This document shows positions 1 to 3,659 of a stretch of DNA of 32,411 nucleotides, one piece after another. The DNA comes from Caldilineales bacterium (GTDB lineage Bacteria; Chloroflexota; Anaerolineae; J102), in contig JAIBAP010000014.1 in NCBI GenBank assembly GCA_019695115.1, positions 1-32,411 of the forward strand. The letters are read 5' to 3'. Position numbers and translations under genes: made by a program. How positions within the stretch are numbered: the first letter of the stretch is position 1; each line of letters starts with the position of its first letter. Below the pieces are notes generated by a model. That model had not been told where the DNA came from and made no database searches. It saw only the letters and a program-made list of their open reading frames with translations.

Positions 1-148
1 CCAGGTGGTATTGGCCGCGACCGGCCAGGTGGTATTGGCCGCGACCGGCCAGGTGGTATTGGCCGCGACCGGCCAGGTGGTATTGGCCGCGACCGGCCAG
101 GTGGTATTGGCCGCGACCGGCCAGGTGGTATTGGCCGCGACCGGCCAG
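1..148. repeat. 24-bp perfect tandem repeat, 6 copies plus 4 nt
   Basis: Six identical 24-bp units fill positions 1-144, with four more matching bases to 148. The array runs off the left edge, so the true copy number is unknown. The period is a multiple of three. On the minus strand the units stay open and read as the octapeptide LAGRGQYH inside the cyclase-like gene. Identical units point to recent expansion, or to an assembly that collapsed or stopped in a repeat. Confidence 0.97.
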
Positions 149-277
149 GTGCAGGGCGATGACGGCCAGGGCGGTGGCGCGAGCCGAGGAGGACAGCCGC
201 CCCACCCAGTGGTTTCCGGCCACCTGCTCTGCCTGCAAGCGTTGCCCAGCCCGGTCGATAGCCGCCGTGATCGTCAT
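1..277 (-). CDS. Terpene cyclase-like protein (squalene/hopene or class II diterpene cyclase family), N-terminal fragment
   Basis: The reading frame starts with ATG at 277 (minus strand) and stays open to the window edge, giving 92 residues. Residues 5-43 (AIDRAGQRL...[10 protein letters not shown]...ATALAVIAL) resemble the first alpha-barrel helices of squalene-hopene cyclase-type and prenyltransferase/squalene oxidase repeat proteins, whose usual opening is an Ala-rich helix, a GxW-type turn and an SSS/TA helix. From residue 44 the sequence is only the octapeptide LAGRGQYH repeated six times. The ATG lies 10 nt past the stop of the polyprenyl synthase gene, so it is the fourth gene of the terpenoid operon. 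The diagnostic DxDD catalytic motif would lie beyond the edge, so squalene cyclase, class II diterpene cyclase and a non-catalytic relative cannot be separated. The repeat could also make it non-functional. Confidence 0.6.
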
Positions 278-287
278 GTCTCAGCTC

Positions 288-1277
288 TCAGGCCAGGCGC
301 AGATAGAGTCTGTCGACCAGGTGGTGCAGCCGCCGGCGGGCAGGAGAATCGGGCAGGAGAACCAGGTGCTGCTGACTGCACCGGCTGAAGTGCAAAGCCC
401 TGGCTCTGGCTTCGTCCAGGGCGCCGACCTCGGTCAGAATCGCCTTCATCTCGGCATAGCGGCCGGCAGCCGGGGCATCGCTTGCGGTCAGATCATCGAG
501 CAGGGAACGCAGGTCGAGGCCGGCGGACTGGCGGGCAAGGATGAGCGGCAGGGTGATGCGGCAGTTGCGGAGGTCGGAGGACAACGGTTTGCCCAACGTC
601 CGGGGGTCGCCCTCGTAGGCCAGAATGTCATCGACGATCTGAAAGGCGACGCCCAGGTTTTCGCCATAGGCAGCCAGCGCCGCCGTCGCCTCGGCGCCTC
701 CCCCGCCCAGGCAGGCGCCGATCTGACAGGCGCTGGCGCAGGCGCTGGCCGTCTTCAGCCGCACCATGCCCAGGTAATCTGCCTCGCTGACGTCCGGCTG
801 GCAGGATAGCGCTGCTTCCAGCGCCTGGCCTTTGGCCATGTCGATGCCCATCTGGCTGAGAAGCCGGATGGCCTGGAGCACGTGTGCGGCGCTGACCCCG
901 CCCTGATGCGCCTGCACCAGACCGAAGAAGCTGTAAAAGATGAAGAGGTCGCCGGTGATCAGGGCGGCGGGAAGGTCGAAACGGGCGTGCAGCGAGGGTT
1001 GCCCTCGGCGCAGGTCGTCGCCATCGACGATGTCGTCGTGGATCAGGCTGGCAACATGGGCGGCTTCGAGGCCCGCCGCGGCAGAAATGACCCGATCCGG
1101 GTCGCCTCCGACGGCCTGGCAGGCGTCTAGAAGCAGCAGGGGGCGCAGGAGCTTGCCGGGGACGGACAGGGCATAGGCGCTGGTCGCGGCCAGATAGCCG
1201 GCGGAGTCGCCCAGAGCCTCTCCGTTCTGTTGGCCCAGCCAGGCCCACACCTGCTCCGCGTCTTCAGGCTGCCACAT
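288..1277 (-). CDS. Trans-polyprenyl diphosphate synthase (GGPP synthase-like)
   Basis: 329 residues. It condenses isopentenyl diphosphate with allylic diphosphates and should supply the substrate for the terpene synthase next door. The first aspartate-rich motif is DDIVD at residues 81-85, followed by the usual LRRG (89-92). The second is DDILA at 216-220, followed by GKPLSSDL (229-236), so its last Asp is replaced by Ala. The residues before the first motif (AHVASLIH) are small or non-aromatic at positions -4 and -5. In this family that usually permits products longer than farnesyl diphosphate, so GGPP is the best guess. The ATG at 1277 is chosen because homology begins there and it overlaps the upstream gene by 14 nt. 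A longer open frame to 1547 lies wholly inside that gene and lacks homology. Confidence 0.9.
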   Translation of the reverse strand: MWQPEDAEQVWAWLGQQNGEALGDSAGYLAATSAYALSVPGKLLRPLLLLDACQAVGGDPDRVISAAAGLEAAHVASLIHDDIVDGDDLRRGQPSLHARFDLPAALITGDLFIFYSFFGLVQAHQGGVSAAHVLQAIRLLSQMGIDMAKGQALEAALSCQPDVSEADYLGMVRLKTASACASACQIGACLGGGGAEATAALAAYGENLGVAFQIVDDILAYEGDPRTLGKPLSSDLRNCRITLPLILARQSAGLDLRSLLDDLTASDAPAAGRYAEMKAILTEVGALDEARARALHFSRCSQQHLVLLPDSPARRRLHHLVDRLYLRLA

Positions 1278-2160
1278 GGAAGTCGCGACGGTGGTAGAAA
1301 CGGCAGCCGGTCTCGGCCATGCCCAGGATGGCGGCGGACGGGAGGTCGCAGCTTGCTGCCAGGGCCTGGCGCTGCCGCCGGAGGGATGCCAGCCCGGCCT
1401 CGATCTCGGCAACGATGTGTTCCTCGGCCTGCCGTTGCGCGGCTTCCGCCACTGCCGTCCAGCTGAGGATGACGATGGCGTTGATCTTGCCCTCGGCCAA
1501 CTCGCGCTCGTAGCTCCGTATGTCATTGGCCAGACGCAGGCAGACACCGGCCGTCACTGCCATTTCCTCCAGGCCGGCCAGATGGGCAGGGGCGGTGGGG
1601 TCGCTGAAGGCGATCAGAAATGTCCAGGGGATGAGGGGGAAGCCGATGGTGTGGCAGCCCACGGCCAGGTAGTCGGCGTAGGAGGGCAGCGAAGCGGGGT
1701 TCTGGCGATAGTCCGACCGCCAGCCATGCTCCTGCAGGTGGCCGTGCAGGTGGTCGCGCAGGGCCTGTCGCCAGGGTGCGGCCAGAGATGGGAATAGAGG
1801 CTGGCGGGAGAGCTCGAGATAGGTCTCGTGCAGCATGGCGGCCAGGTCGTCGCCATCGCCCAGGCTGGCGGCGGGGTCTTCGTAGCTGCGCAGTCGCCCG
1901 GCGATGGCGGCGGCGTCGGCCTGGCCTTCGTCCAGCAGGTCATCCAGGGCGGCGATCCAGAGGCCGACCTGGAGGGTGAGGCTCAGGGTTTGGGGCAAGG
2001 CAAAGGGGGCGGAAGCGGCCATCTGCATGGCCACAGGTTCGATGCGGCCGCGACGGATGCTGGGGTGCGGCTCGGTCCAGGCCGCCAGGCGCGCTGCCGT
2101 TTGTTGCGCCAGCGCCTGGGGGTTGGTCGTTTGCTGGGGGGACAGCGTTGGCTCGGTCAT
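1264..2160 (-). CDS. Class I terpene synthase
   Basis: 298 residues, compact like single-domain bacterial class I terpene synthases. Both metal-binding motifs are present: the aspartate-rich DDLLDE at residues 73-78, and the NSE triad as NDIRSYERE at 212-220 (N, S and E at the expected spacing). These bind the Mg2+ cluster that ionises a prenyl diphosphate before cyclisation or quenching. The start overlaps the P450 stop as ATGA, and the end overlaps the synthase start by 14 nt, so the three genes are translationally coupled. With a P450 upstream and a cyclase-like gene downstream, a diterpene role (processing a class II product, or GGPP directly) fits best. Sesquiterpene or longer substrates are not excluded, and the product cannot be read from the sequence. 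Confidence 0.88.
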   Translation of the reverse strand: MTEPTLSPQQTTNPQALAQQTAARLAAWTEPHPSIRRGRIEPVAMQMAASAPFALPQTLSLTLQVGLWIAALDDLLDEGQADAAAIAGRLRSYEDPAASLGDGDDLAAMLHETYLELSRQPLFPSLAAPWRQALRDHLHGHLQEHGWRSDYRQNPASLPSYADYLAVGCHTIGFPLIPWTFLIAFSDPTAPAHLAGLEEMAVTAGVCLRLANDIRSYERELAEGKINAIVILSWTAVAEAAQRQAEEHIVAEIEAGLASLRRQRQALAASCDLPSAAILGMAETGCRFYHRRDFHVAA

Positions 2161-3560
2161 CGTGGCTCGATGGTCATCCAGATTTCTTCTTCGGGGGTGA
2201 GGAACATGTCCAAGTGGGCGCGCACGTTCTGGCCTGGAACCAGGCGTAGGCGAAAGCGCTGGGCCAGCGTGGTCAGGGCCAGGGTGATCTCCAGTAGGGC
2301 GAAGTGTTTGCCGATGCAGACATGGGGGCCGCCGCCGAAGGGGAAGTAGCCCTCGACCAGCCGCGGCTCGCGGCCAGCGGCGAAGCGTTCGGGCCGGAAT
2401 TGCTCTGGGTCATCCCAAAAGGCCGGGTGACGGTGGGTGATGTAGGGGCTGAGCATGATGGCGCTGCCGGCCGGGATGCGGAAGCCGCCCATGCTGTCAT
2501 CTGCGACGGTCTCGCGCGCATACATGGGCGCGGGCGGGTACAGGCGCAGGGCCTCGTCGATGACCATTTTGGTGTAGCTGAGTTTAGGGAGGTCGGCAAG
2601 GGTGGCCGGGTGGCCGTGCAAGATGCTTTCCAGTTCGGCGTGGAGTTGTTGCTCGACTTCGGGATGGGTGGCCAGGATGTACCAGAGCCAGGTGAGCACC
2701 TGGGCCGAAGTCTCGTGCCCGGCGATGAAGATGGTCAGGAGTTCATCGTGGACTTGTTGGTCGCTCATGCCGCCGCCGTCGGTGTCGGTGTCGCGGGCGC
2801 GCAGGAGCAGGGAGAGGAGGTCGTCGGGGGTCTGTTCCTGGCCTTGTTCCATAGCCCGGCGGTGGGCGATAGTGGCTTCGATGAAGGCGTCGATGGTCTG
2901 CATCGAGCGGTGAAAGCGCAGGTTGGTGGGGACAGGCAGGAACAAGGGCAGGTTGAGGAGGGCGGTCGCGCGTTTGCGGATGAGCCGGGGGATGTAGGAA
3001 AGCGCCTCGCCGACCTCCTGCAACTGTTGGTCCATATTGATGCTGAACATCGCCTCGGTGATGACCCCGCGGGTGAGGTCCATCATCTCGGCGTTCAGGG
3101 GGATGGGCTGGGCCTGGGGCCGGTCTTGCCAATCGGCGACCACGCCTGCGGCGGCAGCGAGCATGATCTGGGCGAAACGGGGGACGGTAGTGGGCTGGAA
3201 GATGGGTTGCATCAATCGGCGCTGGCGCATCCACAGCTCGCCTTCGCTGGTCAGCAGGCCGGCGCCGAAGAGGACGCGCACCCGCCGCACCAGGATGCCG
3301 CGGGCGTAGTTCTCGCGATTGCGCACCAACACGTTGTGCACATGCTCAGGATGAACGATGAGGTGGGTGTCGATGGGGCCCATCTTGACATGGGCCACAT
3401 CGCCGTGTTCGCGCCAAACGCCGGTCCAGAATTTCAGCATTCCCTGCCAGCGCATGGGCGCCCAACTCCCCAAAAGGGGGATGCCGCGAGGTCCGGGCGC
3501 TGCGCGGCCCCTGGCCTGAAGCTGTGGTTGGCCGGGACCGGCTATCAAGTTGTCAGTCAT
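2157..3560 (-). CDS. Cytochrome P450
   Basis: 467 residues of soluble bacterial P450. The oxygen-binding I-helix motif is AGHETS at 280-285, the K-helix ExxR is EALR at 336-339, and the heme loop is FPFGGGPHVCIG at 407-418 with Cys415 as axial ligand. No membrane anchor is evident. As first gene of the terpenoid operon it probably hydroxylates or oxidises the terpene made by the downstream enzymes. That is inference from context, since fatty acid or other hydrophobic substrates would use the same fold. The ATG at 3560 has an AGGGAG ribosome site about 8 nt upstream. The open frame extends to 3668, but that stretch holds the predicted promoter and lacks P450 homology. No ferredoxin or reductase gene is nearby, so redox partners must be encoded elsewhere. 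Confidence 0.93.
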   Translation of the reverse strand: MTDNLIAGPGQPQLQARGRAAPGPRGIPLLGSWAPMRWQGMLKFWTGVWREHGDVAHVKMGPIDTHLIVHPEHVHNVLVRNRENYARGILVRRVRVLFGAGLLTSEGELWMRQRRLMQPIFQPTTVPRFAQIMLAAAAGVVADWQDRPQAQPIPLNAEMMDLTRGVITEAMFSINMDQQLQEVGEALSYIPRLIRKRATALLNLPLFLPVPTNLRFHRSMQTIDAFIEATIAHRRAMEQGQEQTPDDLLSLLLRARDTDTDGGGMSDQQVHDELLTIFIAGHETSAQVLTWLWYILATHPEVEQQLHAELESILHGHPATLADLPKLSYTKMVIDEALRLYPPAPMYARETVADDSMGGFRIPAGSAIMLSPYITHRHPAFWDDPEQFRPERFAAGREPRLVEGYFPFGGGPHVCIGKHFALLEITLALTTLAQRFRLRLVPGQNVRAHLDMFLTPEEEIWMTIEPR

Positions 3561-3606: not shown

Positions 3607-3636
3607 ATTATACGCGGCGCGTCCAGGTGTTGACAA
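3607..3636 (-). promoter_or_regulatory. Predicted sigma70 promoter of the terpenoid operon
   Basis: Minus strand: -35 TTGTCA (3636-3631), an 18-nt spacer, then a perfect -10 TATAAT (3612-3607). Transcription would start near 3600, about 40 nt before the P450 ATG. Its -35 overlaps that of the divergent ppk2 promoter. Confidence 0.65.
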
Positions 3637-3659
3637 GCCCATGACGGCGGACTTAAAAT
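3630..3659 (+). promoter_or_regulatory. Predicted sigma70 promoter of ppk2
   Basis: Plus strand: perfect -35 TTGACA (3630-3635), an 18-nt spacer, then -10 TAAAAT (3654-3659). Transcription would start near 3666, giving a leader of about 47 nt with a GGAGGG ribosome site at 3703-3708. Confidence 0.6.

Follow-up and report, generated by a model that had tools for sequence, protein, structure and literature searches.

The analysed window is a stretch of 32,411 nucleotides at the start of contig C14, which belongs to a 5.99-Mb Chloroflexota genome assembled in 135 contigs. At its left end, four genes on the minus strand encode, in this order, a cytochrome P450, a class I terpene synthase, a prenyl diphosphate synthase and a class II cyclase (Table 1). 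All four open reading frames postulated for this terpenoid locus in the initial annotation are present and were assigned to their families with Pfam. The junctions are also exactly as described there, namely, an ATGA overlap between the P450 and class I synthase genes (2157–2160), a 14-nt overlap between the class I and prenyl diphosphate synthase genes (1264–1277) and a 10-nt gap in front of the cyclase gene (278–287). Such tight junctions support a single operon. Its candidate promoter is located 47 nt upstream of the P450 start codon and is one of two divergent, overlapping sigma-70-like sites (3607–3659; two observed versus 0.4 expected) between the operon and the plus-strand gene ppk2 for polyphosphate kinase 2. 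The GC content of the operon is 0.67 compared to 0.665 in the remainder of the window, and the composition thus gives no sign of recent transfer.

Table 1. Features of the terpenoid operon in the window.
Feature	Position	Strand	Basis or remark
Perfect 24-bp tandem repeat, in-frame (8 aa, HLAGRGQY), inside the cyclase gene	1..151		6.3 copies in the window
Class II cyclase gene, 5' part; rest on contig C41, 54571 down to about 52939	1..277	(-)	In-frame join; SQHop_cyclase_C and _N; DADD versus DVDD of SHC
Short-chain prenyl diphosphate synthase, 329 aa, FARM DDIVD	288..1277	(-)	Pfam polyprenyl_synt 4.7e-57
Class I terpene synthase, 298 aa, DDLLDE and NDIRSYERE	1264..2160	(-)	Pfam Terpene_syn_C_2 1.7e-16; AF2 fold
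Cytochrome P450, 467 aa, first operon gene	2157..3560	(-)	Pfam p450 1.7e-88; motifs
Candidate sigma-70 promoter TTGTCA-18-TATAAT for the operon	3607..3636	(-)	Consensus match only

Class I synthase, prenyl diphosphate synthase and P450

Both metal-binding motifs of the class I synthase are intact, as had been noted before, with DDLLDE at residue 73 and NDIRSYERE at residue 212. They occurred jointly in 0.055% of shuffled versions of this protein. The AF2 model (pLDDT 87) has an all-alpha fold which, together with the DDxxD/E and NSE/DTE motifs, identifies the protein as a class I terpene synthase. The best matching folds were Sat1646 with a Z of 32.0, followed by tolypothrichol synthase (9kgb) with 31.5, Stt4548 with 27.5 and LrdC with 27.3, at a general background of about 26. 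The substrate of Sat1646, Stt4548 and LrdC is copalyl diphosphate (PMC9814573). In sequence and fold together, the class I enzyme is closest to these three and resembles synthases acting on copalyl diphosphate. Sat1646 has a helix-H sensor arginine three residues ahead of the NDxxS of the NSE motif, and this residue is retained as R209. Given the likeness to these enzymes and the gene pairing observed in its relatives (see below), the class I enzyme would accept a copalyl-type diphosphate.

The prenyl diphosphate synthase matched the NCBIfam models for GGPP, GFPP, FPP and longer-chain synthases, each below its cut-off. The residue five positions before the FARM is alanine both in the window enzyme and in each of the four relatives described below. 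In prenyl diphosphate synthases, alanine at this position disfavours a stop at FPP. It thus argues against FPP, and the product is predicted to be C20 or longer. The P450 carries FGGGPHVCIG, ExxR and AGHETS (AGxET of the I-helix) and is by these motifs a genuine member of its family. Among the NCBIfam models, albaflavenone monooxygenase came nearest with 278 bits, ahead of pentalenene oxygenase with 263 bits; neither score came close to the cut-off.

The class II cyclase and its clade

Position 1 of the window falls within the 24-bp tandem repeat, which the initial annotation had not noted. Elsewhere in the genome, this repeat was strongly matched only by the end of contig C41 (54442–54571). 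When C41 and C14 were joined through the repeat, the reading frame was kept and a whole class II cyclase was obtained; this join is based on the common repeat and the open frame and not on reads. The joined cyclase comprises 550 aa with the repeat collapsed to one copy, plus at least five extra HLAGRGQY units. As the assembly breaks within the repeat, the copy number can only be given as at least six. The array is absent from related cyclases, whose length corresponds to the collapsed, single-copy form. Any change in copy number would shift the length of the cyclase by 8 aa without a frameshift. A pseudogene start isolated at the window edge was ruled out, since C41 supplies the remainder in frame. 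Past the cyclase, C41 carries genes for homocysteine S-methyltransferase/MTHFR, Maf, RsgA and UvrD. These appear to be housekeeping genes, so the cyclase is probably the last gene of the operon.

The initial annotation had tied the identity of this last gene to sequence left of position 1. The part supplied by C41 supports a class II cyclase, as the joined gene contains DxDD in the form of DADD as well as QW motifs (two strict and three degenerate). DADD aligns with the catalytic-acid DVDD of the Alicyclobacillus SHC, and Pfam assigned SQHop_cyclase C (1.8e-41) and N (1.3e-23). With DxDD, a double barrel and QW motifs, the protein is a class II terpene cyclase of the gamma-beta type. Its AF2 model (pLDDT 76) showed the SHC fold across 486 residues with a Z of 34.4 to hopene cyclase and about 32 to the drimenyl diphosphate synthase SsDMS, followed by the bacterial diterpene cyclases PtmT2 (26.1), Tpn2 (24.6) and Rv3377c (24.1).

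In a maximum-likelihood tree, the cyclase formed a fully supported clade with those of the genomes G225, G356, G240 and G084 (45–57% identical). The clade is set apart from nine Chloroflexota cyclases of the DTC type (YDTAW) with 100/100 support and also from the hopene-type cyclases of Chloroflexota. A second tree, to which the Alicyclobacillus SHC and a partial row for SsDMS had been added, recovered these three groups again, with SsDMS on a long branch that was not placed with any of them. A squalene-hopene cyclase was ruled out by the clade, by the length of ∼550 compared to 630–700 aa and by the score against TIGR01507 (hopene_cyclase) of 149 bits at a cut-off of 431. An ordinary bacterial diterpene cyclase of the CPS/YDTAW type was ruled out as well, because YDTAW is absent and the clade is separate. 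The clade is apparently an uncharacterised branch of its own within Chloroflexota; a literature search among open-licence papers found no description of it. As the enzyme falls outside the usual bacterial diterpene cyclases, chain length and skeleton of its product cannot be read from homology, and the labels 'GGPP-type' and 'labdane or clerodane' of the initial annotation are tentative.

The four full relatives of the window cyclase are invariant at 220 positions; it deviates from them at 52 of these, several of which are arginines. The same analysis yielded zero to eight changes for G225, G356 and G240, whereas the distant G084 had 58 of 226. In the window cyclase, the changed positions show mild clustering (p 0.02; G084, p 0.37). 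This divergence could reflect a different substrate or product, or else relaxed constraint. Together with the long repeat insertion, it indicates that the enzyme may use another substrate or be impaired.

Relatives in other genomes

The cyclase gene adjoins a prenyl diphosphate synthase gene in G225, G356, G240 and G307 as well, and these synthases are 43–50% identical to that of the window. A protein with Terpene_syn_C_2 was not found in whole-genome searches of these four drafts (79–89% complete). In G240 (L098, 2308–5823), the prenyl diphosphate synthase and the related cyclase are followed by a UbiA prenyltransferase, and this row is possibly a meroterpenoid or cyclic-lipid pathway. In G084, a DXS gene is located downstream of the cyclase.

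The class I synthase has relatives in other Chloroflexota that are 31–40% identical. In six of the seven closer ones with downstream sequence (L047, L048, L050, L059, L062 and L063), the next gene encodes a class II cyclase of the YDTAW type, the exception being L107 on a short contig. In five of these six loci, genes for a response regulator and a histidine kinase come next. Together with the class I synthase and class II cyclase genes, these make up a recurring unit in several Chloroflexota (L048, L050, L059, L062 and L063), which suggests that diterpenoid synthesis is linked to a two-component system. The YDTAW-type cyclases of L059, L062 and L063 (two Caldilineaceae and one unclassified bacterium) carry DADE (PDADETAVAL) and not DxDD, an unusual change of the catalytic acid motif. 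No P450 or prenyl diphosphate synthase homologues were present in the stretches around the class I relatives.

Among the genomes searched, only that of the window combines the class I synthase and this type of cyclase in one operon, while G084 has both kinds of genes on different contigs. Close copies of either were absent from the same genus and from the sampled family members. Searched plasmids gave only distant SHC-type matches to the cyclase, and searched viral contigs contained no relative of the class I synthase. The operon is probably a recombined pathway, in which a module of prenyl diphosphate synthase and cyclase would have been joined to a P450 and a class I synthase whose relatives have a different class II partner.

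Proposed pathway and its alternatives

Starting from the order of the genes, the cyclase frame that is complete across the assembly gap, the motifs and the folds predicted by AF2, we infer substrate, order of steps and product as follows. The prenyl diphosphate synthase would form a linear C20 (possibly longer) diphosphate, which the DxDD cyclase would protonate at the far end to give a bicyclic, copalyl-type diphosphate. The class I synthase would ionise the latter and then close or quench it, before the P450 would oxidise the resulting product. The best guess for the final compound is an oxidised labdane-type diterpenoid. We regard a four-gene operon with these steps as the rather likely reading. 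It is favoured by the presence of DADD and QW motifs in the full cyclase, the likeness of the class I enzyme to users of copalyl diphosphate, its R209, the pairing with class II cyclases in six of seven class I relatives, the tight junctions, the promoter match, the alanine at position -5 of the FARM and the adjacency of prenyl diphosphate synthase and cyclase in four genomes. Against it count the fold of the cyclase, which is nearer to hopene cyclase and drimenyl diphosphate synthase than to copalyl-type synthases, as well as its divergence at conserved positions, its repeat insertion and its assembly from two contigs across the repeat.

The same pathway might run on a chain of another length, with C15 (drimane) or at least C25 in place of C20. 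The fold near SsDMS fits such a variant, and for this prenyl diphosphate synthase the NCBIfam models did not tell GGPP, GFPP and longer-chain enzymes apart. Still, it appears rather unlikely, as the alanine before the FARM speaks against C15 and the nearest structures of known substrate to the class I enzyme are diterpene synthases. In the C35 sesquarterpene route of Bacillus, a class I enzyme acts first and its hydrocarbon product is cyclised by a class II enzyme afterwards. A reversed order of this kind, with the cyclase protonating and cyclising a hydrocarbon, would suit its likeness to hopene cyclase and the loss of several arginines conserved in the relatives, which might have held a diphosphate. 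It is nonetheless improbable, given that the closest likeness of the class I family is to enzymes acting after a class II cyclase and that the partners of its relatives are class II cyclases of the conventional type.

The divergence and the at least six perfect 24-bp copies could also mark a decaying or dead operon, in which the cyclase is losing its function through repeat expansion and loss of conserved residues. This is very improbable, as the frame is open throughout, the repeat is in frame, DxDD and QW motifs are intact and so are the other three genes. In addition, the cyclase of G084 is similarly changed, and the changes in the window may just reflect distance.

A set with a P450 is not without precedent. 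The terp1/sat cluster of Salinispora, with SaDTS, SaCPS and CYP1051A1, leads to isopimara-8,15-dien-19-ol and likewise combines class I, class II and P450 genes, while a Streptomyces cluster (stt) contains Stt4548, Stt4542 and the GGPP synthase Stt4543 (PMC9814573). The class I enzyme of terp1/sat is homologous to that of the window (Sat1646, 1.9e-12, Z 32), but only about 22% identical; the cluster is actinobacterial and has a CPP synthase as its class II enzyme, while that of the window belongs to a clade apart from diterpene cyclases. The stt cluster shares the grouping of prenyl diphosphate synthase, class II and class I genes, but a P450 is not mentioned for it (PMC9814573) and the class I enzymes are only about 20% identical.

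Within Chloroflexota, the combination of class II and class I enzymes resembles Herpetosiphon, whose class II cyclase Haur_2145 belongs to O-methylkolavelool chemistry (PMC5704754). A locus taken as Herpetosiphon-like (G358, L054) contains only distant homologues (class I 28%, class II 33% identical over a part), and no homologue of the P450 or the prenyl diphosphate synthase was found in its 18 kb. SsDMS and CavC are class II cyclases with DxDD and a fold near hopene cyclase too, but use FPP and are partnered by a Nudix hydrolase; the cav cluster also holds a class I cyclase and P450s (PMC11035983). Squalene-hopene cyclase shares fold, DxDD and QW motifs, but differs in length and clade, and the cyclase gene of the window, unlike it, adjoins one for a prenyl diphosphate synthase. 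While the gene set is already known from other bacteria, the new elements are the clade of the cyclase, the pairing of this enzyme and the repeat in its frame.

A 2024 survey retained only proteins for which known diterpene cyclases were nearer than hopene cyclases (PMC11469919). As the trees place the cyclase off the diterpene-cyclase side, surveys may have missed its clade. In a paper that covers the secondary metabolites of Ktedonobacteria, terpenes are not mentioned. Tentatively, the cyclase and its relatives may represent a third kind of bacterial class II cyclase with a dedicated prenyl diphosphate synthase, whose cyclic prenyl diphosphates go to differing partners across Chloroflexota (class I synthase and P450 here, possibly UbiA in G240) and give skeletons undescribed so far. 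With its four genes complete, the operon lends itself to heterologous expression and comes from a phylum in which few terpenoids have been characterised, and the apparent exchange of the class II partner would show the modularity of bacterial diterpenoid pathways.
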